Below are positions 13,487 through 34,400 of a stretch of 64,000 bases of DNA, piece by piece. A model generated the notes under the pieces. That model was not told the origin of the DNA, did not search any database, and saw only the letters and a program-made list of their open reading frames with translations. The position numbers and the translations under genes are program-made. How positions within the stretch are numbered: position 1 is the stretch's first letter; every line of letters starts with the position of its first letter. The stretch spans positions 1 to 64,000 of the forward strand of contig DASTMB010000074.1 of assembly GCA_035714365.1 (NCBI GenBank), read 5' to 3'. The DNA comes from Mycobacteriales bacterium. Its GTDB lineage: Bacteria > Actinomycetota > Actinomycetes > BP-191.

Positions 13487-13490
13487 TTCG

Positions 13491-13562
13491 TGGGCGATAG
13501 TGGTGTCGAACCACTGGCCTCTACCGTGTCAAGGTAGCGCTCTCCCGCTGAGCTAATCGCCC
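13491..13562 (-). tRNA. tRNA-Val (anticodon GAC)
   Basis: A 72-nt cloverleaf on the minus strand: acceptor GGGCGAT paired with ATCGCCC, anticodon stem CTACC/GGTAG with loop TTGACAC (anticodon GAC), T loop TTCGACA and discriminator A. It lies 1 nt downstream of tRNA-Cys and is likely co-transcribed with it. CCA is not encoded. Confidence 0.95.
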
Positions 13563-13563
13563 G

Positions 13564-13635
13564 AGGCGGAGGCGAGAATCGAACTCGCGTACAGGGCTTT
13601 GCAGGCCCTTGCCTAAGCCACTCGGCCACTCCGCC
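13564..13635 (-). tRNA. tRNA-Cys (anticodon GCA)
   Basis: A 72-nt cloverleaf on the minus strand: acceptor GGCGGAG paired with CTCCGCC, anticodon loop CTGCAAA (anticodon GCA), T loop TTCGATT and discriminator U as expected for Cys. CCA is not encoded. A Cys-Val tRNA tandem is common in actinobacteria. Confidence 0.95.
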
Positions 13636-13976: not shown

Positions 13977-14222
13977 ATGAAGGTCGTACGTGCTCTCGTG
14001 CTGGGCGGTGCGGTCGTCGCGGCGCTCGCCGCGACCCCGGCCAACGCTCAGACAGTGCCCGGTTGCGACACGGTGCAGACAGTGCCGTCGTCGATCGGTG
14101 TGACACTCGGTGTCACACTGGACTGCTCCGGCAGTGGCAGTGCGGTCTCCGTGGCGACAGTCCCTGGTTGCGAGCTGATCCAGACAGTCGCCAGCGAGAT
14201 CGCGACAGTGCCCTGCTCGTAG
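13977..14222 (+). CDS. Small secreted Cys-containing peptide rich in ACA codons
   Basis: An 81-residue peptide: Sec signal (about 1-24, ending ATPANA) and a mature part of 57 residues with four Cys and an imperfect internal repeat ([Q/A]TVPGC[D/E]...QTV at residues 25-36 and 60-71). Its codon use is striking: seven of nine Thr codons are ACA (codons 26, 35, 43, 47, 61, 70, 77), against almost none in neighbouring genes. The signal-peptide Thr is ACC and codon 32 is ACG. Most ACA codons are followed by a Val codon. Two in-frame stops (TAGTAG) end it, followed 11 nt later by a hairpin. It lies upstream of the operon with an unusual aminoacyl-tRNA synthetase and tRNA, so ACA here may specify something other than Thr (inference). 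Confidence 0.8.
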   Translation: MKVVRALVLGGAVVAALAATPANAQTVPGCDTVQTVPSSIGVTLGVTLDCSGSGSAVSVATVPGCELIQTVASEIATVPCS

Positions 14223-14233
14223 TAGGTCACCCA

Positions 14234-14251
14234 CGACGGTGAGAGCCGTCG
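14234..14251 (+). other. Hairpin after the stop codon of the ACA-rich peptide gene
   Basis: CGACGG, 6-nt loop TGAGAG, CCGTCG, starting 11 nt after the stop. The same six stem base pairs with a similar position recur inside the longer hairpins after the two leader-peptide genes at 21.5 and 22.0 kb. The rest of 14223-14486 holds no gene that I can support. Confidence 0.4.
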
Positions 14252-14486
14252 GAGCCGGGAGTCACGACCAGCGCGCGGTCCCGACCACCCCGGCCGCGGC
14301 GGGCGCCACCGCCCTCACCACCCACGACAGGAACGTCCCGAGGCACGGGGACGGCGACGTCGTCCGAGGGCCGCCGTCCGCCACCCCGTCCGGCCCGCGG
14401 TATCAGCAGCCGCGGCCGCGACGGCCACCACCGCCCCGCGTCCCCACGCCCCGGGCCGTCCCTACCGCCCCAGGAGTAGCAGCACG

Positions 14487-15650
14487 ATGAGCACCGCCAC
14501 GCCCACGCTGCCCCGGACCCCCCGGCCCGGCGCGCGCGACGATGTCGAGGCGATGATCGGCGACACGCCGCTCGTCCGGCTGCGCCGGATGTTCCCGGCC
14601 GACGGTCCGGCCGTCTACCTCAAGCTCGAGCAGTTCAACCCGGGCGGCAGCGTCAAGGACCGCACCGCGCTCGGCATCATCCGCCACGCCGAGGAGACCG
14701 GCGTGCTGCGGCCCGGCATGACGATCGTGGAGAGCTCGTCCGGCAACACCGCGATCGGGCTGTCGCTGCTCGCGCAGTCGCGCGGCTACCACGTCGTCGC
14801 GATCTGCGACCGGCACCTGCCGGCGGTCAAGCGGGCGCGGCTGCGCGCGTTCGGCGCCGACGTCGTGTTCCTGCCGGACACGCCGCCGGGCATGGACACC
14901 GTGCAGCTGCGCATCCGTCTCGCCGAGCACCTGGCGAACGTGCTCCCGGACGCGGTGACGCTCGGCCAGTACTCGAGCCCGGGCAACGCGCGGATCCACT
15001 ACGAGACCACCGGCGCCGAGATCTGGCGCGACACCGGCGGGCATGTGTCCGCCCTCGTCGCCGCGGTCGGCACCTGCGGCACGATCACCGGCGCCGGGCG
15101 GTACCTGAAGGAGCGCGACCCGTCGGTCTCCGTCGTCGGCGTGGAGCCGGTGGGCTCGGTCGTGTTCGGCGGCGACCACGGGACCTACCTCGTCCAGGGC
15201 GGCGGCCTCAGCTTCGTGCCGAGCATCTTCGACGGCGGCGTCGTCGACACCGGCATCAAGGTCGACGACGCGACGACGTTCGGCTGCGTGCGCGACACGG
15301 CGTTGCGCGAGGGGTGGCTGCTCGGCGGCACCGGCGGGCTGGTCGTCGCCGGCATCCAGCGGATCGCCGAGCGGTACGGCCCGGACGACACCGTCGTCGG
15401 GATCGTCGCGGACTCGGGGGACCGGTACGTCGAGACGCTGTTCGACGAGGACTGGATGGCGGGCCACGCGGCCGGCGCCGCGCCGGTGTCCGCGTGGGCG
15501 GCCCACCCGGCGACCGCCGCGCTGACGCAGGCGCTCGGCTGCAGCGTCAACGCCGTCCCGGCCGACCCGGGGCCGGCGCTCGCGGAGTTCTGCCACACGA
15601 TCGGGTTCGACCCGGCCGGGCTGCCGGTGCCGCCGGAGGGTGCCGCGTGA
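14487..15650 (+). CDS. PLP-dependent beta-substitution enzyme (cysteine synthase / SbnA-like)
   Basis: A 387-residue fold-type II PLP enzyme of the O-acetylserine sulfhydrylase family. The Schiff-base Lys is K57 in NPGGSVKDR; the substrate loop is ESSSGNTAIG and the PLP phosphate loop GTCGTITGAG. It carries a C-terminal extension of about 60 residues (AHPATAALTQALGC...) absent from ordinary CysK. The long forms I know include SbnA, which joins O-phosphoserine to glutamate on the way to 2,3-diaminopropionate, and related enzymes in antibiotic clusters. No SbnB-type dehydrogenase is next to it. It is the first enzyme gene of a five-gene operon and most likely makes a beta-substituted alanine. 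The exact nucleophile cannot be read from the sequence. Confidence 0.8.
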   Translation: MSTATPTLPRTPRPGARDDVEAMIGDTPLVRLRRMFPADGPAVYLKLEQFNPGGSVKDRTALGIIRHAEETGVLRPGMTIVESSSGNTAIGLSLLAQSRGYHVVAICDRHLPAVKRARLRAFGADVVFLPDTPPGMDTVQLRIRLAEHLANVLPDAVTLGQYSSPGNARIHYETTGAEIWRDTGGHVSALVAAVGTCGTITGAGRYLKERDPSVSVVGVEPVGSVVFGGDHGTYLVQGGGLSFVPSIFDGGVVDTGIKVDDATTFGCVRDTALREGWLLGGTGGLVVAGIQRIAERYGPDDTVVGIVADSGDRYVETLFDEDWMAGHAAGAAPVSAWAAHPATAALTQALGCSVNAVPADPGPALAEFCHTIGFDPAGLPVPPEGAA

Positions 15651-16804
15651 GCGGGTACCTCCTCCTCCACTACGACGAGTTCCACACGCCGCTCGGGCTC
15701 GTCTCGCCGCTGCTCACCGGCGACGGCCCGCGCGTCGTGCTGCACGTCCGCGTCGACGACGCCGACGACGGCGGCGCGGCGCCCGCCGAGGGCTGGGTGC
15801 GGGAGCACGTCGACGCGCGGGACGAGTTCGCCGCCGGGTACCTCACCCGCGCGGTCAAGGCGAACGCCGTGTACGAGGGCGGCTACTACCTCTCCGCCGC
15901 GCTGTCCCGCCCGCTGCTCGCCGCGGTGTGCGCGCGCTCGCTGCGCGAGCGCGGCATCGGCGTGCTGGTCCACGGCTTCGCCGGCAACGACCAGCTCCGC
16001 TTCGAGATGGCGGTGCAGGCGCTCGCGCCGGAGACGACGATCGTGTCGGTCGCCAGCCTGCTCGGCAGCCAGAACGACCGCAACGGCGACGGCTACACCG
16101 TCAGCACCAACCTCTGGGGCCGCAGCGTCGAGGCCGGCCCGCTCGCCGACCCCGCGACCCGCCCGCCCGCCGAGGTGTTCGAGCGCGCCGGGGCGGGGTT
16201 CGCCACCGACGTGCCCGCCGCGCTGCACACGGTGTCGTTCGAGCGAGGCGTGCCGGTGGCGTTCGACGGCGTCGCGAGCGGGCTGCCGGACCTGCTGCGC
16301 CGGGTGGAGGCGGCCGCGCGGCCGCACGGCTTCGGCTACACCGACCTGGTCGAGGACGGCGCGATCGCGCTGAAGACCCGTGCGGTCTACGAGTCGCCCG
16401 CCGCGATCGTGCTCGTCGCCGCGCACCGCGACCTGGAGCGCCTCGTCGCGACGCGCGCGCAGAACCGGTTCAAGGCGCTGGTCGACCAGGCGTGGGCCGA
16501 GCTGGTCTACGACGGCTACTGGTTCGACGCGCAGCGGGAGAGCCTGGACGCGTACGTCGACAGCGTGAACCGCTGGGTCACCGGCGACGTCGACCTGCTG
16601 TTCCGGCCCGGCGGCGTGCACGTCGTCGGCCGCCGGTCCCCGCACGGCCTCTACGGCGAGGCCGAGTCCATCTACCGCTTCGGCCAGGACTTCGGCGCGC
16701 GCGAGGCGACCGCGGTCGCCTCCTCGCTGTCGGCCCACATGCGCGCGTCGGTCCGGCGCGGCGCCACCGCACGAGAGAACGGGAACCCCCGATGGAACGC
16801 CTGA
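15647..16804 (+). CDS. Argininosuccinate synthase-like protein lacking the ATP P-loop
   Basis: A 385-residue relative of argininosuccinate synthase, starting with a GTG that overlaps the previous stop (GTGA). Matches along the family are clear: VDARDEF, AVKANAVYEGGYYLSAALSRPLL, GNDQLRFEM, STNLWGRSVEAGPL, FERGVPVAFDG, LKTRAVYESPAA and VVGRRSPHGLYGE. What is missing is the N-terminal PP-loop that binds ATP (SGGLDTS in the family); here the start reads LLLHYDEFHTPLG. The HG.TGKGND loop is shortened to HGFAGND. So ATP-driven adenylation may be lost or altered while the citrulline/aspartate binding fold is kept. In the operon it may act on a ureido or guanidino intermediate. This is inference. Confidence 0.8.
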   Translation: MSGYLLLHYDEFHTPLGLVSPLLTGDGPRVVLHVRVDDADDGGAAPAEGWVREHVDARDEFAAGYLTRAVKANAVYEGGYYLSAALSRPLLAAVCARSLRERGIGVLVHGFAGNDQLRFEMAVQALAPETTIVSVASLLGSQNDRNGDGYTVSTNLWGRSVEAGPLADPATRPPAEVFERAGAGFATDVPAALHTVSFERGVPVAFDGVASGLPDLLRRVEAAARPHGFGYTDLVEDGAIALKTRAVYESPAAIVLVAAHRDLERLVATRAQNRFKALVDQAWAELVYDGYWFDAQRESLDAYVDSVNRWVTGDVDLLFRPGGVHVVGRRSPHGLYGEAESIYRFGQDFGAREATAVASSLSAHMRASVRRGATARENGNPRWNA

Positions 16805-17589
16805 TGTGCCCTCCGACGTACTTCGACGTCGAGTACAGCATCAACCCCTGGATGGACGTCGCGGTGCCGGTGGACAAGGCGCTCGCGGCCGACCAGTGGC
16901 AGCACCTCTACGACACGCTGGTCGAGCTCGGCGACACGATCCACCTGGTGGACGCGGCGCCGGGGCTGCCGGACATGACGTTCTCCGGCGACGCCGGGAT
17001 GGTGTGGCAGCGGACGTTCGTGCCGAGCAACTTCCGCCACCCGGAGCGGCAGGGCGAGGTCGCGCACTACCTGCCGTGGTTCGAGGCGAACGGCTACGCG
17101 ATCCGGCCGATGCCGGACGACGTGGTGTTCGAGGGCCTCGGCGACGTGGTGTTCCACAACGCGCGCGCGTTCGTCGGCCACGGCATCCGCTCCGACGAGC
17201 GGGCGATCGAGGTGCTCGGCGAGGTCGTGCCGCGGCTCGAGGTGCTCGGCTCGCTGGAGATCGTCGACGACCACTACTTCCACCTCGCGATGGCGCTCGG
17301 GTTCGTCGACGACGACACGGTCGTCTACTACCCGCCGGCGTTCACGCCCGAGTCCGAGGTCGTGATCCAGAAGGCGGTCGCGAACGCGATCCCGGTCTCG
17401 GCGGAGGACGCGAACACGTTCTTCGCCTGCAACAACCTCGTCATCGGCGACACCGTCCTCATCGACGACTGCACGCCGGCGCTGCGCGAGGACCTCGGTG
17501 CGTACGGCTACCGCGTCCGCACCGTCCCCATGTCGGAGTTCAAGAAGAGCGGCGGGTCGCTGCGGTGCCTCGTCCTCAGCTTCATGTGA
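16792..17589 (+). CDS. Arginine deiminase/amidinotransferase-fold enzyme (DDAH-like)
   Basis: A 265-residue member of the guanidine-modifying superfamily (DDAH, arginine deiminase, amidinotransferase). It begins with the family signature CPPTYFDVEYSINPWMD, has FSGDAGMV (acidic substrate-binding region), DDHYFHLAMALGF with the catalytic His, and ends with GGSLRCLVLSF, where the Cys is the expected nucleophile. Both hydrolysis of a methylated or plain guanidine and amidino transfer are possible. The ATG at 16792 overlaps the previous gene by 13 nt; an ATG at 16804 (TGATG overlap) is an equally good start and gives MCPPTYF. It is probably used to make or trim the guanidine/ureido group of the operon's product. 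Confidence 0.85.
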   Translation: MERLMCPPTYFDVEYSINPWMDVAVPVDKALAADQWQHLYDTLVELGDTIHLVDAAPGLPDMTFSGDAGMVWQRTFVPSNFRHPERQGEVAHYLPWFEANGYAIRPMPDDVVFEGLGDVVFHNARAFVGHGIRSDERAIEVLGEVVPRLEVLGSLEIVDDHYFHLAMALGFVDDDTVVYYPPAFTPESEVVIQKAVANAIPVSAEDANTFFACNNLVIGDTVLIDDCTPALREDLGAYGYRVRTVPMSEFKKSGGSLRCLVLSFM

Positions 17590-17619
17590 CGGCGCGCTAG
17601 CGCAGGGAGGGCGGGCACG

Positions 17620-19311
17620 ATGAAGGTCCTGGGGGTCAACGCGGTCTACCACGAGACGTCGGCGGCGCTCGTCGTCGACGGCGAGGTCGTGGCCGCGGTC
17701 GAGGAGGAGCGGTTCAACCGGCGCAAGCACGGCGCGGAGGCCCGCGTCGACAACGCCGACGAGCTGCCGCTGGAGTCGATCCGCTACTGCCTCGGCGCGG
17801 CCGGCGTGACGGCGGCCGAGCTCGACGCGGTCTGCTACTCGTTCGACCCGGCGGCACGCCGGCGGCGCAACCAGCTCGACCCGTACGCGGTGCCGGGGAG
17901 CTGGGGCAGCCTCGACGGCGAGGCGGCGTTCCTCGCCGGCCTGGGCCGCGTCGAGCGGGCGCTGTCGGACGCGCTCGGCGAGCCGGTCGGCGACCGGCTG
18001 CGCTGGGTCCCGCACCACCTCGCGCACGCCGCGTCGAGCTACTACGCGTCGCCGTTCGACGAGGCCGCGATCCTCGTCGCCGACGGCATCGGCGAGTACG
18101 ACTCGACGCTGCTCGCGTACGGCTCGGGCGGGCGGATCACGCCGGTGCGGACGTTCTCGTTCCCGGATTCGCTCGGCTTCCTCTGGGAGCGGCTCAGCGC
18201 GTTCCTCGGCTTCTCCGAGTACGACGCCTGCAAGGTCATGGGCCTGGCCGGCTACGGCGACCCGCGGCGGTACGAGGACCTCATGGCGAAGATCGTGCGC
18301 GTCGAGCCGGGGGCGTTCGCGGTCGACGACAACATCACGCAGTTCCGGCAGCCGGTGTCGGAGGAGCTGGCCCGGCTGTTCGGCCCGCTGCCGTCGCGCA
18401 TCGGCCGGGTGCACGAGGACGTCGCCGCCGCGCTCCAGCACGCCACGAACGAGATCGTGCTCTCGCTCGCCCGCAGCCTCTACGACGCCCGTCCCACGCG
18501 CGGCCTCTGCCTCGCCGGCGGCGTGGCGCTGAACTGCACCGCGAACTGGGTGCTCAAGGAGAACGGCCCGCACGAGGAGGTCTACGTCCCGAGCGCGCCG
18601 CACGACGCGGGCACCGCGGTCGGCGCGGCCCTGCACGAGTACCACCGGGTCCGCCCGCGGGACGCGGTGCGGGTGCGGGCCGGCGCGTCGCCGTACACCG
18701 GCCCGGAGTTCGGCGACGCGGAGGTCCTCGCGGCCGTCGAGCGGCACGGGCTGACGGCGGCCCGGCTCGACGACGCGCCGGCCGAGGCGGCCCGGCGGAT
18801 CGCCGCGGGCGAGGTCGTCGGCTGGTTCCAGGGCCGCATGGAGTTCGGCCCGCGCGCGCTCGGCAACCGCTCGCTGCTCGCCGACCCGCGCGACCCGTAC
18901 ATGCGCGACAAGCTCAACGTGAAGGTCAAGCACCGCGAGCCGTTCCGGCCGTTCGCGCCCAGTGTGCTCGCCGAGCGGGCCGCGGAGTGGCTCGAGCTGG
19001 GCCGCCCGTCGGACAGCTACGAGTACATGCTCTACGCCTGCCCGGTGCGCGAGGAGGTCGCCGACCGGATCCCCGCCGTCCTCCACGTCGACGGCACGGC
19101 GCGGGTGCAGCTCGTGACGGCCGGGAGCAACGCGCGGTACCACGCGCTGATCTCGGCGTTCCACGCGCTGACCGGCGTGCCGGTCGTGCTGAACACGTCG
19201 TTCAACGACTCCGAGCCGATCGTCTGCACGCCGGACGACGCGATCGCGACGTTCCTCAAGACCGACATCGACGCGCTGTTCCTCGGCGACCACCTGGTGA
19301 CGAAGCGATGA
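17620..19311 (+). CDS. NodU/CmcH-type O-carbamoyltransferase
   Basis: A 563-residue carbamoyltransferase of the NodU/TobZ family, about the usual length. The N-terminal ATP-grasping half begins MKVLGVNAVYHETSAAL and has VPHHLAHAASSYYASPF with the catalytic His pair and VADGIGEYDST. The C-terminal YrdC-related half has GWFQGRMEFGPRALGNRS and KHREPFRPFAPSV. Family members use carbamoyl phosphate and ATP to carbamoylate a hydroxyl (antibiotics, Nod factors). A GGGAGGG ribosome-binding site precedes the ATG. In this operon it may carbamoylate the side chain of the amino acid intermediate or of the final product. All motifs appear intact. Confidence 0.9.
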   Translation: MKVLGVNAVYHETSAALVVDGEVVAAVEEERFNRRKHGAEARVDNADELPLESIRYCLGAAGVTAAELDAVCYSFDPAARRRRNQLDPYAVPGSWGSLDGEAAFLAGLGRVERALSDALGEPVGDRLRWVPHHLAHAASSYYASPFDEAAILVADGIGEYDSTLLAYGSGGRITPVRTFSFPDSLGFLWERLSAFLGFSEYDACKVMGLAGYGDPRRYEDLMAKIVRVEPGAFAVDDNITQFRQPVSEELARLFGPLPSRIGRVHEDVAAALQHATNEIVLSLARSLYDARPTRGLCLAGGVALNCTANWVLKENGPHEEVYVPSAPHDAGTAVGAALHEYHRVRPRDAVRVRAGASPYTGPEFGDAEVLAAVERHGLTAARLDDAPAEAARRIAAGEVVGWFQGRMEFGPRALGNRSLLADPRDPYMRDKLNVKVKHREPFRPFAPSVLAERAAEWLELGRPSDSYEYMLYACPVREEVADRIPAVLHVDGTARVQLVTAGSNARYHALISAFHALTGVPVVLNTSFNDSEPIVCTPDDAIATFLKTDIDALFLGDHLVTKR

Positions 19312-20945
19312 CGACCAGCGCGGAGCGGCCGGTGCTCGCCGCCGCGACGGAGTTCGCCGACCACGGGTGGGTCGACTCCGTCGCCGCGGCCGAGGGCCGC
19401 TTCGTGCTGCGCAACGCGCGCGGTCGCTGGGACGTGCGCTGCGACGGTGGCGGTCCGGCCGCCGCGCTCACGCGGCTGCGGCCCGAGTCGGCGGTCGAGG
19501 TGAGCGGCCGGCTGGAGCCGGGGGAGGGCGGCGCGGCCGTCGTCCGCTGCGCGCGCCTCGACGTGCGCAACCTCGCGGAGCCGCTGCCGTTCACCCCGGC
19601 CACCCGCGAGGCGGCGCCCGCCGACGTGCGCGCGCGGTACCGGTACCTGGAGCTCCGCGACGACGCGGTGCGCGAGCTGCTCGTCGCCCGGCACCGCGCG
19701 GTGCACGCGCTGTCCTGCCACCTGGCCGACCTCGGCTTCGTCTCCGTCGAGACGCCCCTGCTGGCCGTGCCGTCCGGGAGCGGCGCGCGGGAGTTCACCG
19801 TGCGCGGCACCGGCGACGTCGAGTACGCGCTGCCGCAGTCGGCGCAGGTCTACGGCCACCTGCTCGTCGCCGGCGGCGTCGAGCGGTACTACCAGCTCTC
19901 CCGGTGCTTCCGCGACGAGGACCTCCGCGCCAACCGGCAGCCGGAGTTCACCCAGCTCCACCTGGAGCAGGCGTTCGCGACGACCGACGACGTCGTGCGG
20001 GTCGTCGAGGGGGCGGTGGTGGCGGCGTTCGCGGCGTGCGGGCGCCCGGTCGCGACACCGTTCCCGCGGCTCACCTACGACGACTGCGTCGCGCGCTACG
20101 GCACCGACACCCCGGACCTGCGGCACGAGCCGCTGTTCCGCGTGCTGCCGTGCCGGCTCGACCGCCGCCGGGAGGGGCCGGCCGACCTGTTCTCGGTCGC
20201 GCCCGCCGACGGCGTGGAGCTCACCGCCGACGACTGGGCGGCCGTCGCGCGCGCAGGCGACCGCGCCGGCTGCCGGCTCGCCGGCTACGCGCCGGCCGGC
20301 GCGCCGGACCCGGACGAGGCGGCGCTGGCGTTCCCCGCGCTGCGCGTGGCGCTCGACCTCGCCGACGCGCCGTTCCCCGGCTGCGTCGCGGTCCTCGCCG
20401 GGCCGGCCGCCCGTGCCGCGAAGGTGTGCCGCGCGGTCTACACCGCCTCGCTCGCGCACCCGGCGCCCGGCGGGCCGCGGCCGGCCTGGGTCACGGCGTT
20501 CCCGATGTTCGAGGCGGACGCCGCGGCGCCCGCCGGCGTCGCCGCGGCGAACAACCCGTTCGTCGCGCCGCTGGACGAGGCGGCGTTCCGGGCCGCCCGC
20601 AAGAAGGTGGAGCTGCTCGCGCTGCGCGGGGCGTCGTTCGACCTCGTCGTCGACGGCGTCGAGCTGGGCAGCGGCTCCGTCGTCAACCACCGGCCCGAGG
20701 TGCAGGAGCGGGTGCTCCAGCTCCTCGGGATGCCGCGCGAGGAGGTGCGCCGGCTGGGCTTCCTGCTCGAGGCGCTGCGGTACGGCGCGCCGCCCGTCGC
20801 CGGCTTCGGGCTCGGCGTCGACCGGCTCGTCGCCGCGATCACCGGCGCGCCCGGCATCCGCGACGTCATCGCGTTCCCCAAGACCAAGACCGGCCGCTGC
20901 CCGATGACCGGCGGCGCGGAGAGGGGAGGTGGCGGGCCGAGCTGA
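19308..20945 (+). CDS. Aspartyl-tRNA synthetase paralogue with altered substrate pocket
   Basis: A 545-residue class II aminoacyl-tRNA synthetase of the bacterial AspRS type, its ATG overlapping the previous stop (ATGA). Order: divergent OB-fold (about 15-95), motif 1, motif 2 (RCFRDEDLRANRQPEFTQL), a shortened GAD-like insertion and motif 3 (GFGLGVDRL). Set against E. coli AspRS by eye, ATP-binding residues are kept but residues that read Asp are not: the Lys at 198 is Gly183 (QSAQVYG), Arg489 is Val459 (GSGSVVNH), Asp233 is His (QLHLE), and the HH pair of HHPF is NN (N415-N416). Loss of both cationic residues argues for a neutral or basic substrate. The tRNA-like gene 17 nt downstream is the likely partner. 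Codon 250 (20055-20057) is an ACA. Confidence 0.85.
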   Translation: MTTSAERPVLAAATEFADHGWVDSVAAAEGRFVLRNARGRWDVRCDGGGPAAALTRLRPESAVEVSGRLEPGEGGAAVVRCARLDVRNLAEPLPFTPATREAAPADVRARYRYLELRDDAVRELLVARHRAVHALSCHLADLGFVSVETPLLAVPSGSGAREFTVRGTGDVEYALPQSAQVYGHLLVAGGVERYYQLSRCFRDEDLRANRQPEFTQLHLEQAFATTDDVVRVVEGAVVAAFAACGRPVATPFPRLTYDDCVARYGTDTPDLRHEPLFRVLPCRLDRRREGPADLFSVAPADGVELTADDWAAVARAGDRAGCRLAGYAPAGAPDPDEAALAFPALRVALDLADAPFPGCVAVLAGPAARAAKVCRAVYTASLAHPAPGGPRPAWVTAFPMFEADAAAPAGVAAANNPFVAPLDEAAFRAARKKVELLALRGASFDLVVDGVELGSGSVVNHRPEVQERVLQLLGMPREEVRRLGFLLEALRYGAPPVAGFGLGVDRLVAAITGAPGIRDVIAFPKTKTGRCPMTGGAERGGGGPS

Positions 20946-20962
20946 TGCGCGTGCACGACCGG

Positions 20963-21210
20963 ACCGGAGTGGCGGAACTGGGAAACGCACAGGTCTTGTA
21001 AACCTGCCGCTCGGCATCGGTCGCCGACACGGTGACGACACGTCCTCCGGTGCCCTATGACCGGTGGACCGGCCACGACGGATCAGCATCCGACCGGGCG
21101 GCCTCGGCCGGGCCGTCCGTTGCTGAGGTCGGGTGTCCGTCCACGGCCCTTGTCACCGTCAGGCTGCTGAGACCCGGGCCTTGGGGGTTCGAATCCCCTC
21201 TCCGGTGCCA
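20963..21210 (+). tRNA. tRNA-like RNA, anticodon UGU, with a 176-nt insertion before the T arm
   Basis: The 5' part is a clean tRNA: acceptor ACCGGAG (20963-20969), D arm with stem GCG/CGC, anticodon stem CAGGT/ACCTG (20990-20994, 21002-21006) and loop CTTGTAA, giving anticodon UGU for ACA codons. The 3' part is also clean: T arm with loop TTCGAAT (21183-21199), acceptor CTCCGGT (21200-21206, perfect 7 bp), discriminator G and encoded CCA. Between them lie 176 nt (21007-21182) instead of a normal variable loop. These can form a long rod: 21019-21025 with 21162-21174, 21029-21036 with 21152-21159 (8 bp), and 21037-21041 with 21133-21137. G73 is an AspRS identity base and A1-U72 is unusual for tRNA-Thr. 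It is either a giant variable arm or an insertion removed later. Confidence 0.7.
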
Positions 21211-21246
21211 GACGCGGCCCCGTCCTCCCCCGGGCGGGGCCGCGTC
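21211..21246 (+). terminator. Terminator after the tRNA-like gene
   Basis: An 11-bp perfect inverted repeat (GACGCGGCCCC / GGGGCCGCGTC) directly after the encoded CCA, followed by a short T tract. A close copy lies after the first leader-peptide gene. Confidence 0.75.
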
Positions 21247-21354
21247 GCCGTTTCTCCCTCGCGGACGAAGCCACGGACCCGTCGCGGACGGGACCATCGC
21301 GGGCAGCCGCCCGGCCACCGCGGCCGGGCCGGGAACCGCGAGGGGAGGGACACC

Positions 21355-21531
21355 ATGAACGCACGGACGCTGCGGCTGCGCCGCGAGGCGCTGCACGAGC
21401 TCACCACCGTCGAGCTCGGCCGGGTACAGGGCGCGGGGGTCGTCGACACGACAACCTGCCAGACCACCGAGCTGCTCACGCCGTTCATCGCGACCGGACA
21501 GTCGCAGGACACAACCTGCACGTCGTTCTAG
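21355..21531 (+). CDS. Leader-peptide (RiPP precursor-like) gene 1 with two ACA codons
   Basis: A 58-residue peptide with a charged leader (ARTLRLRREALHELTTVELG) like the leaders of class I lanthipeptide-type and other ribosomal natural-product precursors, then AGVV and a 28-residue core rich in Thr with two Cys. Only two Thr codons are ACA, codons 33 and 53 (21451-21453, 21511-21513), each one codon before a T-C pair. The paralogue downstream has ACA at codon 33 too and again in an Asp-ACA-x-Cys setting, though the cores differ. GGGAGGG lies before the ATG. No lanthionine synthetase or exporter is near, so leader processing must come from elsewhere. The core may receive the amino acid made by the upstream operon (inference). 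Confidence 0.75.
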   Translation: MNARTLRLRREALHELTTVELGRVQGAGVVDTTTCQTTELLTPFIATGQSQDTTCTSF

Positions 21532-21533
21532 AC

Positions 21534-21624
21534 GCGCACCGGCACGCGCGACCGCCGCCCTGCTTCGGCCGGGGGCGCCGCCGCGACGGGATCGGCCCCG
21601 TCGCGCGACCCCGAGGGCGTTCGG
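21534..21624 (+). other. Conserved structured element directly after the stop of leader-peptide gene 1
   Basis: About 90 nt, starting 2 nt after the stop, almost identical to 21963-22048 behind the second gene. It contains a perfect 9-bp hairpin (CGCGACGGG, loop ATCGGC, CCCGTCGCG at 21582-21605) and the block CCGAGGGCGTTCGG. It is better conserved than the peptide cores. Possible roles are mRNA stability or a decoding signal in cis. Confidence 0.6.
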
Positions 21625-21645
21625 AGCGGCCGCGCCACTCTCGTC

Positions 21646-21676
21646 CGCGGCCCCGCCCCTCCCGGGCGGGGCCGCG
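21646..21676 (+). terminator. Terminator between the two leader-peptide genes
   Basis: A 10-bp perfect inverted repeat (CGCGGCCCCG / CGGGGCCGCG) followed by CCGCGTTTCT. It is the copy of the terminator at 21211-21246. Confidence 0.7.
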
Positions 21677-21782
21677 CCGCGTTTCTCCCTCCGCGACGAA
21701 GCCACGCCGTCCCCGCGGTGTGACCCTGGGCGGATCCGCCGGCCCTCGGGGCCGGCCCGGCTGTCGGGAGGGAGGGAACACC

Positions 21783-21959
21783 ATGCAGGCACGCACGCTG
21801 CGGCTGCGGCGGGAGGCGCTGCACGAGCTCACGAGCGAGGAGCTCGGCTCGATCCTCCGCGCGGGCGCCGTCGGCAGCACACCGACGGACACGCTCACCA
21901 CGTCGATCGTCGTCGGGCCGCTCACGCTCGACACACGGTGCGCAACCTCGGTGGGCTGA
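21783..21959 (+). CDS. Leader-peptide (RiPP precursor-like) gene 2 with two ACA codons
   Basis: A 58-residue paralogue of the gene at 21355. The leader (ARTLRLRREALHELTSEELG) is nearly the same; the core differs (AGAVGSTPTDTLTTSIVV...LDTRCATSVG) and has one Cys. The only ACA Thr codons are codon 33 (21879-21881) and codon 51 (21933-21935), the first at the same codon number as in paralogue 1 and the second again as Asp-ACA-x-Cys. Other Thr codons are ACC or ACG. Keeping the ACA codon at fixed places while the surrounding residues change suggests the codon itself, not just Thr, is under selection. GGAGGGAGG precedes the ATG. Confidence 0.75.
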   Translation: MQARTLRLRREALHELTSEELGSILRAGAVGSTPTDTLTTSIVVGPLTLDTRCATSVG

Positions 21960-21962
21960 GCC

Positions 21963-22048
21963 GCGCACCGCACCGCGACGGCCGCCCTGCTTCGGCCGGG
22001 ACGCGCCGCGACGGGATCGGCCCCGTCGCGCGTCCCGAGGGCGTTCGG
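21963..22048 (+). other. Conserved structured element directly after the stop of leader-peptide gene 2
   Basis: The second copy of the element at 21534-21624, beginning 3 nt after the stop, with the same 9-bp hairpin (22007-22030) and loop ATCGGC. Confidence 0.6.
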
Positions 22049-22318: not shown

Positions 22319-22485
22319 GAGCAGGCCACGTCGAGGCTGAGCAGGCAGCGCAGGCCGGTGACCGGCGTCGTGATGCACGGGTCGGTGAGGCAGACCTGGG
22401 TGTTCAGGCCGGCGCCGCCGACCTGGCCCAGCTCCTCGCCGGTGAGCTCGGCGAGCAGCTCCTTGCGGAGGGTGAGGGTGCGCAT
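22315..22485 (-). CDS. Leader-peptide (RiPP precursor-like) gene 3
   Basis: A 56-residue peptide with leader MRTLTLRKELLAELTGEELGQVGG, the double-Gly type ending common for exported bacteriocin-like precursors, and a core with four Cys and several Thr (NTQVCLTDPCITTPVTGLRCLLSLDVAC). It is related to the ACA peptides in the leader pattern (L.LR.E.L.ELT..EL) but all its Thr codons are ACC or ACG. Its stop overlaps the start of the secreted peptide gene that follows. No modification enzyme lies next to it. Confidence 0.65.
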   Translation of the reverse strand: MRTLTLRKELLAELTGEELGQVGGAGLNTQVCLTDPCITTPVTGLRCLLSLDVACS

Positions 22486-22842: not shown

Positions 22843-22998
22843 ATGAAGCGCACCCTGTCGCTCCGCAAGGAGACGCTCGCCGAGCTCACCGCCGGCGAGC
22901 TCGCGTCGGTCGCCGGCGGCGTCACGACCGTGGGCCCGAAGTGCCTGCCGGAGACGCTGACGTTCTGCCCCGACTTCTACTGCACGGGCACGGTCTAG
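22843..22998 (+). CDS. Leader-peptide (RiPP precursor-like) gene 4
   Basis: A 51-residue peptide with leader MKRTLSLRKETLAELTAGEL followed by ASVAGG, a clear double-Gly end, and a 25-residue core with three Cys (KCLP, FCPD, YCTG). The leader type matches precursors of lanthipeptide-like natural products. It begins 2 nt after the secreted peptide gene and its stop overlaps the end of the convergent methyltransferase gene by 4 nt. No maturation enzyme apart from that methyltransferase is near. It has no ACA codon. Confidence 0.65.
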   Translation: MKRTLSLRKETLAELTAGELASVAGGVTTVGPKCLPETLTFCPDFYCTGTV

Positions 22999-25490: not shown

Positions 25491-28400
25491 TCATGCCGCG
25501 AGCGCGTAGTTCTCGACGGCGGTGTACGCCGCCGCCGCCATGGCCATCACGGCGGCGGCCTCCTCGATCGCGACCACCGTCGCGGCGGCTGCCGCGAGCG
25601 CCTCGACCGCGACGACGGCGACCGCCGCGACCGCCGCGACCGCGACCACCACGCCGACCGCGACGAGCGTCACCATCATCGGATTCTCCCACCAGGCGCC
25701 GGCGAAGCTGAGCGGCAGCGGCTCGGTCGTCATCCACTGCGGGGACGGGTTCGGCCACGGCTCGCTCTTCGGCTGGCTGAAGTCCATGTACGGGCTCTCC
25801 TCGGCCGGCTTCTGGACCTCACCCGGCATCGGCGTCTTCCGCACCAGGCTCTCCCGGTACTTCTTCGCGCGTTCGTCGTCGACGTAGTTGTAGTACCGCG
25901 CGCCGCTCGGGGCCGCGGACGGCGGCGACACGACGTAGAACGTGCCCTTCCCGACGCGGAGCTGCGACGTCGGGAGCCACTGACCCGGCGAAGCCTGCTG
26001 GCCGCGGAGCTGGAACTCCTTGACGAACCGCTTCGCGTCCCGCTCCGCGGTGCGCCGGCCGTACTCGTTGTAGGGCTTGACCTCCCAGACGTAGTAGTGG
26101 CCGTTGTAGAGCAGCACGATGTCCGGCCGCGGACCCCAGTTGCGGTTGTTCTCCTTGCCGGGGACGAGCGACTTCAGCCGGCAGCCGCGCAGGATGCCGA
26201 TGTCGCGGTCGAACCCGGGGACGGCCGCGCAGAGCTGCGCGCCCTTCGGCAGCGACGCCTGGATCGTCAGCGCGGTGAGGAACACCGCCGCGTCGTGCGC
26301 CTCGGAGCTGCCCTTCGCGTCGGGGATCGGCCCGTCCAGCGGCCGGCCGTGCGGGGCGCCGTCGGAGCCCATCATGCTGAGCCAGTACGTCATCGCCGCG
26401 CACTCGTCGCCGCCGTCGTCGCAGCCCGGCCGGTGCCCGTCGGGGTCGACGAGGTTCAGCGGGTCGCCGTTGACGTACGAGTAGACGTTCCGGGTCAACG
26501 GGTCGTTGCCGACCGAGCCCTTCCCGTCCGGAGCGCTCGTGCGCACGGTGTCCTGCGTGTTGAACGACGCGCGGGCGGGGTCGTAGGTGCGCGACCCCAT
26601 CTGGTAGGTGCCGGTGGTGGCGTCGCGGCGGGCGCCGTGGAACAGCAGCGACGTCGGCGTCGAGCCGGTGGAGCAGGCGTTGGTGGCGCTCTGCCCGCCG
26701 ATCGGGGAGCCGAACGGGTCGTACCGCAGCGAGCAGGCGACCGTCGCCGAGCTCGTCGGCAGCGTCGTGCTGACGGAGCCGCGGGCGTCGTCGGTCAGGT
26801 ACTGCGGCTGCGAGCCGGTCCGCGCCACCGCGGTCGCCACGCCGTCCGGACGGAGCGCGTAGTCGATCGCGCCGCCGCTCGGCGTGGTCTCCTGGGCGAG
26901 CGTCTTGCTCGCCCCGTCGTAGTACAGCGTGGTCGTGCCGGGCGTCGTGGCGCCCGCGCCGGACTCGGTGCGGGTGGTCTGCCGGTCGAAGCCGTCGTAC
27001 GTGTACGCGGTCGTCGACGGCGTCCCGCAGCCGGTGACGGTCTTGACCGTCGCGGTGAGCTGGCGGTCGAAGCCGTCGTACGTGTTCGTCGTGCACTCGT
27101 CGCCGAGCAGCGCGCCGGACGGCGAGTACGTCGAGTGCCGCACCGGCGCCGCGGCGTTCGCCCGGCTCGTGTCGATGCTGTCGTCGGCGTTGTACGTGAA
27201 CCGCGCCGGGTCGGCCGCGGGGCCGTAGGACAGCCGGTTGCCGTCGTGGTCCCACGTCAGCTCGCGGTCGCCCTGCCGGTCCTTGAACTGCGACAGCCGG
27301 CCCGCCGGGTTGTAGCCGAAGCACTGCAGCCCGGTGGGCAGCAGTGACGGCGACTGCGCGCAGTCGAGCGACGGCGAGGTGCTGGTGCCCTGGTTCGCGG
27401 CCACGACGCGGCCGAGACCGTCGTACTGGTAGTCCCAGCGGGAGAGGACGGCGGACGCCGCCCCCGACAGCGTCTGCGACGCCACCGTGTCGTCGGGGTT
27501 GTAGACCCGCGACAGCGCCGCGCCGTTGGGCAGCGAGACGCCCGCGAGCCGGCCGGCGACGTCGTACGACCACGACTGGGTGCCGCCGGCAACCACGTCG
27601 GAGGTGAGCGACGCGAGCTGCCCGCCGTTGCCGTAGGTGTTCGTCGTCAGCACCCGGGCTCCGGTCGCGTCGACGACGTCGGCGCGCGCCACGCGAGCAC
27701 CCGAGCCGTCGTAGGCGAACTGCACGGTCCGCCCGCGCTCGCTGACCGTGCGGGGCGTCCCGTCGAGGTAGAACGTCGCGGTCGTCGTGACCGGCGACCC
27801 GCTCGCCGGCGTGTTCACGACCGAGACCGCGTGCCCCGCCGGGTCGTACGTGTAGGCGATGCTGTCCTGGCCGTTGTGGCCGCTCTGCGTCGCCATCCGG
27901 TCGTCGTCGTAGTACGTGAAGCGCGCGGTGCCCGACGACGCCGTGACGGTGCCGGACGAGTTGCGCATCACGGACAGCTCCGACGACTTGCGGCCGGCGT
28001 TGTCGTAGCCGTACGTCGTGCGCCGCGTGACGGAGCCGTCGGCGGTGAACGGGGTGGTACGGGTCTGGAGCAGGTTGTCGAGCGTGTACGTGTTGACCAC
28101 GGCGACGCCGTTGACGTTGGACGCGTCGTGCGCGTTGGCCGACGGCGACGTCGTCGTCGTGAGGTTGCCGACGGCGTCGTAGGCGTACGTCGTGTGGTCG
28201 CGCGCCGGGTCGGTCGCGCTGGTGCCGGTGCCGTAGACGTCCTTGCGCAGGCCGTCCGTGTAGTAGGACGCCGTGCTCACCCGCACGATCGGCGTCGCCG
28301 GCTGCGGGTCGACCGGGGCGTGGTTGAGCCAGGTCTTGAGCTCGACCGGCTTGCCGTTCGCGTCGTGCCGGTACTCGGTGAAGTGGTTCACCGTCGCCGT

Positions 28401-31400
28401 CGACGTGGGCTCGCCCGCCTTCGACGCGACGAGGCCGTCCGCCGTGTACGTGGTGACGTCCTGGTGGCCCAGGGCGTCCACCGTCTTCACGACCCGCCCG
28501 CTGCCGTCGTACTGGTACGTCGCCGTCACCTGCCGGCCGGTGCCGGTCGGCTGGCTCGGGTCGGGGGAGTTGACCGTGAGCGGCTTGTTGTCGTCGGTGT
28601 AGGTGGTGAGGACGTAGCGGTTGTCGGCGTTGTTCGACGTCGGCAACGTCACCTTCGTGCGGTTGCCGACGAAGTCGTACGCGTAGCGGATCACGCAGAC
28701 GCCGACGTTGCCCGGGTACGCGGGCACCCCGGTGACCGCGTCCGGCGTGGCGCCGGTCGGGCACTGCGAGGTCTGCGTCGTGCTGAGCCCCGGGTCGCTC
28801 GCGGAGGACGCGTCGTAGCGCGGGCTCCACGCCCGGATCACGCGGCCGTCGGCGTCGACGTCGGAGCGCGTCATGAAGCGCGGGTCGGGCGTCGTGGTCG
28901 ACGTCGCGAACGCGCGCGGCTCGAACTGCGCCGTGACGCGGCCCTCGCTGTCGTACATGACCCGGGTGCGGATGTTGCGCCCGCCCTGGGCGTCGGTGAG
29001 GCCGGCCGACTCCGCGAACTTCGACGACGACGCCTGGACGGTGTCGACCACGCGGTTGTCGGCGTCGTACGAGTAGGCCGTGATGCGGCCGAGCGTCCGC
29101 GTGCCGGGGTAGCTCGGGTTGTCCAGGTAGAACGGGGTGTCGGTGTCGATGCGGATGTAGCCGCTGTCGCCGTAGCCGCCCGCGGCCGGCCCGCTGCCGC
29201 CCGCGCCGCCCGTCGCGTAGACGCTGCCGAGGCTGAGGTTCGGCGCGGTGATCCACACGCCGCCACCGGAGCCGCCGCCGCCGGAGCCGCCGCCGCTGCC
29301 GCCGACGCCGGCCGTGATGGAGGTGCCGGCCGCGCCGTCGGCCGAGATCCGGCCCTCGTTGTCGAGCTGGTTGGCGGTGATGTGGATGAAACCGCCGCCC
29401 GCGCCGCCGGCGCCGCCCGGGTTGGTACCGCCCGCGCCGCCGCCGCCACCGCCGGAGCCGAGGTCGGTCGTGTTGCCGGCGTTGAGGTCGGCGGAGCCGT
29501 ACGCGGCGCCGCCGGACCCGCCCGCGCCGCCGCCGGTGGCGGTCGCGCCGTAGCTGCCCGAGTACCGGTGCCCGGCACCGCCACCGCCGCCGCCGTTCAC
29601 CGCGCCCGGCGAGCCGCCGTGGCCCGGACCCTGGCCCTGGCCGTCCGGCGCGGCGACCGTGAGCGACGTGCCGCCCGCGGCACCGGGCAGGCCGCGGCCG
29701 TCCGCGTTGATCCGGCACGAGTAGCAGACGCTGACGGTGCCGGTGGCCTTGATGTCCAGGCGGCCGCCGCCGCTGGTGTACGGCACCGCCACGACGTACG
29801 CGCCGTTGACCAGCGTGAGGTTCCGGAAGTTCTTGCCCGTGGGCATGACGTACGGGTTGCTCGCGCCGTAGACGTTGCCGTCGATGGTGAGGTCGCCGTC
29901 GGCGCCGGTGCCGAGGTCGACCGCGCCGGGACGCAGCACCGACCTGACGTTGCCGACCGAGTCGTACGTGTAGCGCGTGACGTTGGTGACGCCGGTCTCG
30001 CGCGGGACGGACTGCGTCAGCAGCCGGTTGTTGAGGTCGTACGTCGAGGTGGTGGTGGTGCCCTTGGCGTCGGTGCTCGACGTGACGTTGCCGTCGCGGT
30101 CGTAGGAGACGCTCGACGTGAGCGGGGTGCTCGCGTCGCGGTACGTCGTGGTCGTGCGCGCGCGCCCGGCCTCGTCGTACGTCGTGTGCGTGGCGTACGG
30201 GTCGCCGGCCGCGCACGTCGTGGCGCCGCCCTCCGCGAAGCTGCGCGGCGGGCAGGTGCGCAGGACGTTGCCGTCGGCGTCGTACACGGTGTCGGTGCGC
30301 AGCGTCGTCAGGACACCGTCGTAGCGCGGCGCGTCGGTGCGCACCAGCCGGTGCACGGCGTCGTAGCGCAGCGTCGTCACCTGCGCGTCGGCGTCGGTCT
30401 TCGACACGACGTTGTCGACGCCGTCGAACGACTGGAGGTTCGAGCAGACCAGGCGGCCCGCCGGCAACGGCGCGTCGGCCGTCGTCGTCGCGGTCGCGCG
30501 GCAGCCCGGCGGGCGCTGGGCCGGGTCCGTCGGGAACGGCCCGCGGGTGAAGCTCGTGGACACGACGCGGTTGACCGCGTCGTACGACGACACCGTGACC
30601 GAGCCGTTCGGGTCGGTCTTCGACGTCCGGTTGTCGAACGCGTCGTACGTGTAGCTCGTCTGCTTCCCGGCGGCGGCGCTGACGGGGGTCGCGGTCGTGA
30701 GCGGGTTGTTGTTCTTGTCGTACGTCGCGACGACGTCGTAGCTCGTCGAGTTCGCGGTGACGCCGCGCGGCGGGGTCACGCGTTCGGAGTTGCCGTTGCG
30801 GTCGACCTGCGTCTTCGTCCGGTTGCCGATCGGGTCGGCGGCCTCGGTGACGTAGCGCCACGGGTTCGACAGCGAGCCGCGGATCGACTCCGCGTAGCCG
30901 CCCGAGCAGCACGACGACCACGTGGTGGCGGTGCCATAGGTCTGCCTGCGGTCCCAGGTGCGCGCGATGTTGCCCGCCCGGTCGTAGCTGTAGGCGATGA
31001 AGTGGTCGACACCCTGGTAGTCGGACGGGTTGGACGTCGGGTCCGACACCGTCTTCAGCCACCCGCCGGCGGACGTGTTGCCGCTGAGGTCGCGCTCGGT
31101 GTCGCTGTAGTACTGGTACACGTACCTGCCGTACGTCGAGAACCAGTACGTGGTCGCCGTCGACTGCGGCGTGCGCATCGTGACGCGCTGCCCGTAGTCG
31201 TCGTAGGTGTAGTCGGTGAGGGCGGTCGTCGTGCCGTTGAACGGCTCGGTCTTGCTGCAGAGCACGCCGGTGTTGCGCGCGGTGCAGGCGCTGCCCGGGG
31301 CGGTGGTGTTCGGTGCCGTGCCGACGGCGTTGGCCGGGGCGAACGTCGTGCGGTAGTTCGCGAACGACGCGCCCGCGGCGTTGCCGCGCGGCGTCACGGA

Positions 31401-34400
31401 CGCCGTCTGGTCGGTGATGACGTAGATCACCGACAGGCTCTGCGTCGCGTCCGGGCGCGCGGTCGACGTGACGACGCCGCCGGCACCCGGGGTGTCCGTG
31501 GCGGTCTGCGTCGTGCCGTCGGCCTTCACGTACTGCGCGGTGAAGCCGAACGTCGTGTCGAGCGACGCGGGGGAGCCGCCGGTGTTGGCGCGGCGGGCGG
31601 CGAGGAGGTTCCCCTCGTCGTCGTAGAGGAAGTTCGTCACCTCGTCGGGCGTGCTCGCGGTGAACGAGCTGCGGGTGACGCGGCAGACGTTGTTGTCGCC
31701 GGTGGTGGCGGGCTGTCGGCAGCCGGCGGTGTCCCACGTCTTCTGCGTCGAGTGCAGGTAGACGTCCGAGGTCGAGCCCTCGTCGATCTGGCCGACGCGG
31801 CCGGCGGAGTCGAGGCCCTGGTACCGCGTGCGGTGCGTGCCGGTGTCGGCGGTGACGTAGTCGGGCGACGCGAAGTAGGTGATCGTGGACACGGTCCCGT
31901 TGCGGTCGGTGATGCCGGTGACGCGCTTCGGGCCGAGCGTCGCCGGACCGTACGCGAACCGCGACGTGTACCCGCGCGCGTCGGTGACCGAGCAGAGCTG
32001 CCCGGTGCTGGTCGTGGTGGACCCGTCGCAGTTGTCGCCGAAGCCGTCGTAGGTGTACGTGACGTGGTCGCTCGCGACCGCGCCCGAGGTCTCCGGCGGG
32101 TTGACGACCTTGACGAGGTGCTGCGGCGTCGCCGTGTCCAGCTGGTAGCTCGTCACCCGGCCGGCCGGGTCGGTGACGCGCACCTCGGTCGACGACGGGT
32201 AGGCGATCGACAGCTTGCGGCAGGCCGCGACGAGCGACTGCGCGCAGGTCGTGGAGCTGTTGTAGACCGGGCGCAGCGTCGGCTCGAAGACCGTCGTCAG
32301 GCGCCCGAGCGTCGCGCCGGCCAGCGGCAGCGACTCGTACTGGTACCGCAGCTCGACACCGCTCGGGTCGACCACGCTCAGCAGGCGGCCGTTCCACGAG
32401 TACTCGGTGCGCAGCCGGTCCGGCCGCATCGCGGCGAAGCCGAGCACGACGCCCGTCGAGACGCCGCCGCAGCCGGCCGACGAGACGCCGACGTACCGCC
32501 ACAGCGACAGGTGCACGCCCGCGGGGGCCGTATAGGTGCCGTCGACGCAGACGTTGGTGTGCTTCGTGATGTCCAGCGCCTTGGGCAGCAGCGTCCCGAT
32601 CGCGCTGGTCGAGGTCAGCGAGCTCAGCGAGATCGGCGTCGCGAGCGACTTGAAGCGGAACAGGTGCCGGGTGCCGTCGCGGTCCACCAGCGTCACCGCG
32701 AGCGGCGACGTCACGCCCTGCGCGCTCGGCACGGACAGACCGGTGGCGCCGATCCCGAGCCCGCCGAGGTCGTCGACCTGGCCGAGGTTGAGCTGCCAGC
32801 CGGCGCCGATGCCCGCACCGGGCAGCGCGAGCACGCCGGTGTCCTGGCTGTTGTAGGTGCGCCGCACGCCGTAGGAGAGCCGGCCGTGCGCCTGCACCGG
32901 GGTCGAGTCGTTGGCGCTGACGACCAGGTTGCCGTTCGCGACGTTGACGCTCGCGAGCGACTCGGCCGCGACCTGCTCGGCCGCGTAGGACCACCAGTCC
33001 TCGAGGCCCAGCGCCGTGTCGCACACGGTCATGGTGACCGCCGACGTGGAGGCGCCGAACGAGTTCACGGCGCGCGCGGCGTTGGTCGCCGTCGAGCAGA
33101 CGCGGTCGACGCCGGCCGCGACCGCCTTGTAGACGATGTCCCTCGCCCCGAGCCCGGGCACGGTGAAGCTGCCGACGTTGAGCGTCGTCCCCGTGAACGA
33201 GCAGACGGTGCAGGCGGCGCCGTCGATCGTCATCGGGGTGCCGGTCGCGACCAGGCCGGCCGGCACCGCGTCCGTGATGCTGTCGACGACCATCGACGTC
33301 GACGCCGGGTTGCTGACGTGCAGCGTGAACGTCAGCTCCTGGCCGCGGCCGTACGCCGCCGCCACCGGCGACACGCTCTTCACGAGCTGCGGCGCGGGCG
33401 ACAGCGTGACGGTGTTGGAGTTCGCCGACGGCGGGCCGTAGCCGACGCTGTTCGACGCCGTGACGGTCGCGTAGTAGCTGCCGTACGGAACGCTGCTGAA
33501 CGTCGTGGTGAGGCACGTGGCGCACGTCTTCGTGGTCGTCTCGCCGGTGACGGCGTTCCACAGCGTGATCTCGTAGCCGTCCACGGCCGGGCCGCCGTTC
33601 GCGGCCGGCGCCAGCCAGTCGACCTTCACCGACGTGTTCGTCGGGGTGGAGGCGACGACGTTGCGTGGCGCGCCGGGCGGCGGCGACCAGACGATGTCGA
33701 CCTTCGGCCGCTGGTCGGTGATCGGGTCGTTGGGGCCGGAGAACGACGGGCCGCCGATGTTGCCGGTGGCCGGCTCGGACGACAGCCGCTGGCCGATGCC
33801 GTAGTTCGGGTTCGCGGGGAAGAACCCGCTGACCACCCAGTCGTCGACCAGCGCCTTGATGTCGAACGCGATGGCCGTGCGGGTGCCGGGCGCGAACGCC
33901 GGGAGGTCGTAGTAGTACAGGACCGGCCCGGTGGCGGCGGTGGCGGAGATCTGCGTCCACGTGCTGTTGACGCTGTGGTTCTGGCGCAGCGGGTAGTACT
34001 GGATGCGGTAGTTGTGCTTGTCGCACTGGTACTGCGTCGCGTCGAAGCCGAAGCAGCCGTTCTGGAACAGCGTCATCTTGGCGCTGGTGACGAGCGAGTC
34101 CTCCGCGATCTGCGACGTGGAGAACTTGTAGAAGCTGCGCGCCGGGCGGGCGTCGATGTTCCAGACGGTGCCGACCTTCTCGGTCTGCGTCGCCGCGCCC
34201 ATGGCGTTCGGGTTCGTCGACGGCGGGACGTAGCCGATGCAGCCGCCGCGGGTGCCGCCGCAGGCGCTCTCGTGGCCGGAGCTGACCTGGCTGGTCACCC
34301 AGCTCGCGATCTGCGTGTTGCGGTACGCGACGCTCGGGTCCAGCACGACCGGGAACGACTTGTCCGCGAGCCAGTCCGCGTCGACGGACAGCGTCACGTC

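Follow-up and report, generated by a model that had tools for sequence, protein, structure and literature searches.

A candidate cassette for codon-specific insertion of a non-standard amino acid in an actinomycete and two proteobacteria

Genes for amino acid chemistry, an aberrant aminoacyl-tRNA synthetase and an unusual tRNA lie side by side in a genome of the Mycobacteriales (GenBank assembly GCA_035714365.1), raising the question of whether this locus serves to insert a non-standard amino acid at one particular codon. We analysed the 64,000 nucleotides (nt) at positions 1 to 64,000 of contig DASTMB010000074.1 (hereafter the window), which is contig C74 of a host genome of 3.8 Mb in 98 contigs. 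An earlier note on the window had proposed that a biosynthetic operon makes such an amino acid (here called X), that a paralogue of aspartyl-tRNA synthetase (AspRS) loads it on a tRNA with anticodon UGU, and that ribosomes insert it at ACA codons of small peptides encoded on either side. Judging from gene content and sequence in this and two sister loci, the locus is probably a dedicated set of synthetase, tRNA and biosynthetic genes for the insertion of a non-standard amino acid.

Gene content of the cassette and its sister loci

The five genes for amino acid chemistry and the tRNA gene within 17 nt of them, as described in the earlier note, were all found in or close to their expected places. 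The operon genes lie on the forward strand with overlaps or short gaps between neighbours, the tRNA begins 17 nt after the stop codon of the AspRS-like gene, the small gene P1 precedes the operon, and the small genes P2 and P3 follow the tRNA (Table 1).

Table 1. Features of the candidate cassette in the window, and the UAG-rich open reading frame (ORF) of Breoghania
Feature	Position	Strand	Basis or detail
P1, small secreted-type peptide (81 aa, N-terminal signal-like stretch)	13977..14222	+	ORF; 7/9 Thr codons ACA
Pyridoxal phosphate (PLP) beta-replacement enzyme (PALP; CBS/SbnA/CysK-like)	14487..15650	+	Pfam PF00291, 218 bits
Argininosuccinate-synthase-like protein (ASS-like)	15647..16804	+	Pfam/NCBIfam profile searches
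DDAH/arginine-dihydrolase-like enzyme	16792..17589	+	Pfam/NCBIfam profile searches
NodU/TobZ-type carbamoyltransferase	17620..19311	+	PF02543 + PF16861
AspRS paralogue, changed amino-acid pocket	19308..20945	+	Profile searches, alignment, tree
tRNA, anticodon UGU (20997-20999), G73, CCA, 176-nt variable arm (21007-21182)	20963..21210	+	
P2, 58 aa, mersacidin-like leader	21355..21531	+	2 ACA codons (D-T-X-T-C and D-X-T-C)
P3, 58 aa, leader as in P2	21783..21959	+	2 ACA codons (S-X-P-T and D-X-R-C)
Breoghania UAG-rich ORF	L046:11937-12158		73 codons, 16 TAG, zero TGA, TAA stop

Genome contigs of the GTDB were scanned with the synthetase as query, and 80 loci were listed. The top two among the matches listed were in Breoghania corrubedonensis DSM 23382 (locus L046) and in a metagenome-assembled genome of the Paraburkholderia 'Vmac' leaf symbiont (locus L045). 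Each of these two contained all four other operon genes, not one of which lay beside the synthetase in the rest of the 80 listed loci. Identity to the window proteins was 58-65% for the DDAH-like enzyme, 52-56% for the carbamoyltransferase, 47-54% for the PLP enzyme (54% in L045, 47% in L046), 41-43% for the AspRS-like protein and 38-43% for the ASS-like protein. In both loci a tRNA gene follows the synthetase gene after 43-56 nt, with the D-arm seen in the window, G73 and the anticodon CUA, which reads UAG. The earlier note had suggested looking in other actinobacterial genomes for this synthetase and tRNA together with ACA-rich small genes. Such an association was found in two distant proteobacteria, in a form more striking than predicted, since the tRNA there reads UAG and one ORF has 16 in-frame UAGs. 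The Breoghania gene order is rearranged relative to the window, in that a gene for a LacI-like regulator (L046 4946-6028) comes before the operon and the gene for the PLP enzyme (L046 12476-13555) is found beyond the UAG-rich ORF, in convergent orientation.

The altered AspRS of the earlier note was confirmed residue by residue. The best NCBIfam families of the window synthetase are those of AspRS (NF001750, TIGR00459), albeit with scores below the curated equivalog cut-offs (349.4 vs 443 and 323.4 vs 373.85 bits), and the protein aligns near full length with the AspRS structures 1efw and 1c0a, keeping the class II catalytic motifs. Numbered as in E. coli AspRS (PDB 1c0a), residues K198, D233, H448 and R489 and the flipping-loop sequence TPE (169-171) are kept in 37 of 37 canonical AspRSs compared. 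All are replaced in the three cassette synthetases: K198 by G/G/G, D233 by H/H/H, H448 by N/N/C, R489 by V/V/L, and TPE by SGS/STT/STS. We take K198 and R489 to be the residues that grip the side-chain carboxylate of aspartate, as in structural work on AspRS, and with both lost a larger, neutral pocket is likely. Moreover, all three deviate at 40 of 156 strongly conserved AspRS columns and form one clade with long branches and support of 100/100. Each of the three genomes has a separate AspRS homologue, the host copy (G000:C15:33895-35550) being 38% identical.

The tRNA-like gene that the earlier note had read as decoding ACA has a complete cloverleaf, comprising the acceptor ACCGGAG/CTCCGGT, the anticodon loop CTTGTAA with UGU, the T arm GGGGG-TTCGAAT-CCCCT, G73 and an encoded CCA. 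Neither ARAGORN nor the Rfam tRNA model called it, an omission evidently due to the length of the variable region (176 nt). All three cassette tRNAs have a 7-bp acceptor stem, a 5-bp anticodon stem, a 5-bp T stem, a TTCGAxx loop and one discriminator base, which is G73 throughout; CCA is encoded in two and CCC in Paraburkholderia. Forcing the cloverleaf put the folding energy 0-1.7 kcal/mol above the minimum in all three. The variable region, 208-210 nt in Breoghania and Paraburkholderia, folds into one closed arm in each, and the sequence of its base helix differs between loci with the pairing kept. A known group I or II intron inside the tRNA was rejected, as no Rfam intron family matched the insert at E up to 5 (window) or up to 2 (L045, L046). 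G73 is a major aspartate determinant, and anticodon determinants of tRNA-Asp are strong in bacteria (PMC9976931). Given that CUA and UGU share zero positions, we infer that the cassette synthetase probably ignores the anticodon. Elsewhere in the host genome, a weak Rfam tRNA match (L044, G000:C88:14277-14350; 30 bits) that ARAGORN did not call may be an odd or degenerate tRNA.

Pfam places the four remaining enzymes in known superfamilies. The PLP enzyme scored under every NCBIfam equivalog cut-off listed, and the ASS-like, DDAH-like and NodU-like proteins likewise fell short of theirs. In all three loci the ASS-like protein lacks the N-terminal SGGxDTS (SGGLDTS) ATP motif and has LLxYDxxHTP in its place, and its match to the Pfam HUP domain begins only at profile position 58. 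Because this ATP-binding motif is lost, citrulline-to-argininosuccinate chemistry is doubtful for it. The combination of PLP enzyme, carbamoyltransferase and DDAH-type enzyme suggests for X an alanine whose beta position bears a carbamoyl, ureido or guanidino-type group; the diaminopropionate-type amino acid named in the earlier note is a guess.

The DDAH-like enzyme is the best marker of the system: the next-best match found was approximately 39% identical, and in the genome search the scores were 212 vs 537 bits. A search with this marker revealed no further members in ~1800 genomes (taken from the class, order and phylum to which the window belongs and, for the two proteobacteria, from their relatives or phylum), nor on the plasmids or viral contigs searched. 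Viral contigs yielded 11 DDAH relatives, just 31-38% identical, and one AspRS-like match (46% over 136 residues). Two genomes of the host's own genus are without the cassette. Horizontal transfer is suggested by the presence of the cassette in three unrelated hosts and its absence from close relatives.

Codons of the tRNA in adjacent small genes

The Breoghania ORF begins ~65 nt past the tRNA, is preceded by a perfect Shine-Dalgarno sequence (AAAGGAGGTG) and opens with ATG GCT CTT TAG ATG GTT TAG. With X standing for UAG, its product would read MALXMVXMARTVATXLEXARTTXLVGVXLVXAAXATQALHMXKQAXGAXVDVXKVXMERAXAVXALQAXQGKK. No other readthrough frame on its 376-kb contig contains as many TAGs (binomial P ~1e-23), and the richest frame in a Markov control of 200 sequences of 21.5 kb had 7. 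Two other sources of the TAGs were rejected: an antisense gene would need 16 CTA in 73 codons (P ~6e-30; CTA occurs at 1.6 per 1000 codons on the contig), and TRF detected one 18-base doublet alone in the ORF, which argues against tandem-repeat DNA. The Shine-Dalgarno sequence and ATG-GCA-CTT-TAG are retained after the Paraburkholderia tRNA, and the motif SD-ATG-GCN-CTN-TAG occurs exactly once per genome in Breoghania and Paraburkholderia, just past the tRNA. A protein search of the three genomes found no second UAG-rich homologue, and the X positions of the Breoghania peptide showed no significant helical clustering.

In the actinomycete, the enriched codon is ACA. The earlier claim of 11 ACA codons in under 200 codons of three small genes was borne out by counting (7/81 in P1, 2/58 in P2, 2/58 in P3; 11/197 in total), whereas its count of only four for the window's larger genes was slightly low, a crude gene call giving ~10 in 17,269 codons. 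The background in 271 sampled host genes was 70 ACA in 108,236 codons (0.65 per 1000; 0.94% of Thr codons). Against this, the excess had P = 0.006 for P2, P = 0.004 for P3 and P ~2e-13 for P1, the seven ACAs of which are not fully independent because they are sited in internal repeats and a palindrome. P2 and P3 were also compared with their own relatives: 4 of their 23 Thr codons are ACA, vs 1 of ~177 in 22 readable paralogous precursors of the host genome (Fisher P = 6e-4), and the two genes have ACA positions in common, one at residue 33 and one within the Asp-X-x-Cys motif of the C-terminal part. Within the P1 repeats, adjacent synonymous positions vary (GTG/GTC, CCC/CCG/CCT) and ACA is constant. 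No further ACA-rich gene was accepted, since other ACA-dense frames in 429 kb resemble out-of-frame shadows of longer genes.

P1 had zero matches in Pfam or NCBIfam. P2 matched the mersacidin-like family PF16934 at 21.9 bits, below the gathering score of 27.6, and P3 had no match; the leader of both is common to ~45 ORFs in the host genome. These ~45 small ORFs, with a mersacidin-like leader of double-Gly type, are clustered and represent a large expansion of precursors resembling those of ribosomally synthesised and post-translationally modified peptides (RiPPs). Clusters lie on contigs C73, C64, C50, C35 and C14, and further leader ORFs in the window at 22363-22485 (-) and 22843-22998 (+). 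With regard to the surroundings, tandem genes for tRNA-Val(GAC) and tRNA-Cys(GCA) (window 13490-13635, -) directly adjoin the cassette and are a possible integration site, and a 3256-aa protein with RHS/YD-repeat-like sequence is encoded at 25491-35261 (-).

UAG is the stop codon of 103 of 246 sampled host genes (~42%). This share is unusually high for an actinomycete of 74% GC, and UAG stops are frequent in the two sampled genomes of the same genus too. It is plausible that a cassette in this host would use ACA, since UAG ends ~42% of genes while ACA is rare.

Weighing the favoured reading against its alternatives

Under the favoured reading, the PLP, ASS-like, DDAH-like and carbamoyltransferase enzymes would make X, which is probably a beta-substituted alanine of neutral or polar character, and the AspRS paralogue, seemingly unfit for aspartate, would load it on the dedicated tRNA. 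Recognition would be by G73 and probably by the tRNA body or giant variable arm, not the anticodon. The ribosome would then place X wherever the anticodon pairs, i.e. at UAG in Breoghania and the Paraburkholderia symbiont and at ACA in the actinomycete, and the products would be small peptides encoded beside the tRNA and written with its codon. The compact cassette has apparently spread horizontally. Of the codon-specific system first proposed, the sequence directly shows the genes, the tRNA with its anticodons, the altered pocket and the ORFs rich in the matching codon; charging with X, its insertion and its structure are what we infer from them. ACA is fairly likely to be the codon used for X in the host actinomycete.

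Several observations weigh against this reading. The UGU anticodon offers determinants for ThrRS, and an ordinary tRNA-Thr(UGU) was found in the host genome (L027). Decoding of ACA as Thr is therefore to be expected at least in part, and the codon would have an ambiguous meaning unless X is favoured by expression or context. The ACAs of P1 fall within internal repeats (GACAGT) and a perfect 9-bp inverted repeat (GTGTGACAC-TCG-GTGTCACAC, 14098-14118) inside the coding region, which contains two of them. ACA is rarer in the host than in the two same-genus genomes, but ACT drops in step, such that ACA-specific avoidance across the genome is unsupported, and we rejected cassette-driven avoidance of ACA. 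In Paraburkholderia the UAG ORF ends after MALXD (TAA two codons on). UAG is still a normal stop in Breoghania (35 of 216 genes on the contig), so X must compete there with release factor. AlphaFold models of the synthetase and the ASS-like protein were of low confidence (mean predicted local distance difference test, pLDDT, 44 and 47) and were not used. Lastly, three loci are known in all, one each from an actinomycete, an alphaproteobacterium and a betaproteobacterium.

The first three of these points favour an alternative in which the cassette is real but ACA in the actinomycete peptides is read as ordinary Thr, its enrichment being a by-product of repeats. We regard this as unlikely, given that the synonymous positions flanking ACA in the P1 repeats vary with ACA fixed, and that P2 and P3 exceed their paralogues and have ACA positions in common.

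Two other alternatives each seem improbable. In one, the amino acid, its synthetase and the tRNA do belong together, but the tRNA, once charged, passes its amino acid to an enzyme (for PEARL-like peptide extension or some other tRNA-dependent reaction) instead of decoding on the ribosome. The resemblance of P2 and P3 to RiPP precursors with a mersacidin-like leader would fit, and tRNA-dependent peptide ligases are known (PMC11962472). However, no such ligase was present among the scanned cluster proteins, the anticodon arms are intact, the CUA anticodon adjoins an ORF with 16 in-frame UAGs, and anticodon and enriched codon shift together between loci. In the other, the tRNA decodes but carries a standard amino acid (Ser by SerRS, as in allo-tRNAs; Thr by ThrRS; Asp by the paralogue), and the enzymes make an unrelated metabolite. 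A UGU anticodon carries ThrRS determinants, and the cassette tRNA has the combination of G73 and long variable arm that SerRS recognises (PMC7609411). Yet the five genes and the tRNA stay together in three distant lineages, the Asp side-chain contacts are lost in all three synthetases, and a new cluster would hardly be needed to place Ser or Thr. Antibiotic clusters are well known to include resistance copies of aminoacyl-tRNA synthetases, and the host has another AspRS homologue, but it is very improbable that the operon makes an aspartate-like antimetabolite with the paralogue as self-resistance copy and the tRNA and ACA peptides as incidental, because a resistance copy must still charge Asp, whereas none of the three synthetases retains K198, D233 or R489, and because the conserved unusual tRNA and the UAG-rich ORF would be left unexplained.

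Relation to known code expansions and implications

To our knowledge, the genetic code has just two established natural additions, selenocysteine and pyrrolysine. In its proposed function the cassette is like that of pyrrolysine, but it is homologous to neither known natural expansion. Like the pyrrolysine cassette (pylT, pylS, pylBCD), it unites in one locus the genes of a biosynthetic pathway with a class II synthetase and a tRNA of its own, the latter with G73, has a patchy and apparently horizontal spread, and would decode UAG in the two proteobacterial loci. Unlike it, the synthetase is an AspRS paralogue (profile searches gave no PylRS match), the genes are PALP, ASS-like, DDAH-like and carbamoyltransferase and not pylB, pylC or pylD, the putative products are small peptides and not methyltransferases, and one member reads the sense codon ACA. 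The variable arm is 176-210 nt long, compared with 3 nt in tRNA-Pyl (PMC7609411).

The selenocysteine system likewise devotes a tRNA to a non-standard amino acid, and this tRNA also has G73 and a long variable arm. In contrast, the present cluster is without visible SelB or selenocysteine insertion sequence (SECIS), SelA-type conversion on the tRNA, or UGA. Allo-tRNAs, which are non-canonical tRNAs of Ser type, are likewise bacterial and unusual, having long arms and odd anticodons, whereas the tRNAs here have a canonical 7+5 acceptor branch, an arm of more than 170 nt, and a dedicated synthetase with biosynthesis genes. Bacterial AspRS (aspS) aligns near full length with the synthetase and shares its class II motifs, but the aspartate-binding residues are replaced here. 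No earlier description of the system was found in a literature search whose coverage mostly excluded subscription journals.

With moderate confidence, we propose a third natural code expansion, unrelated to selenocysteine and pyrrolysine, in the form of a mobile cassette re-targeted to different codons through the anticodon: UAG in the proteobacteria and the rare ACA in the actinomycete. If true, this would be, as far as known, the first natural insertion of a non-standard amino acid at a sense codon, by way of a tRNA with a giant variable arm, and a natural case of one amino acid assigned to different codons, a sense codon included. The cassette would also provide a new synthetase/tRNA pair, maybe orthogonal, for protein engineering, and would make the tolerance of an ambiguous codon testable. 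Moreover, it would imply that the genetic code is expanded, and such expansions passed on, more readily than has been assumed.

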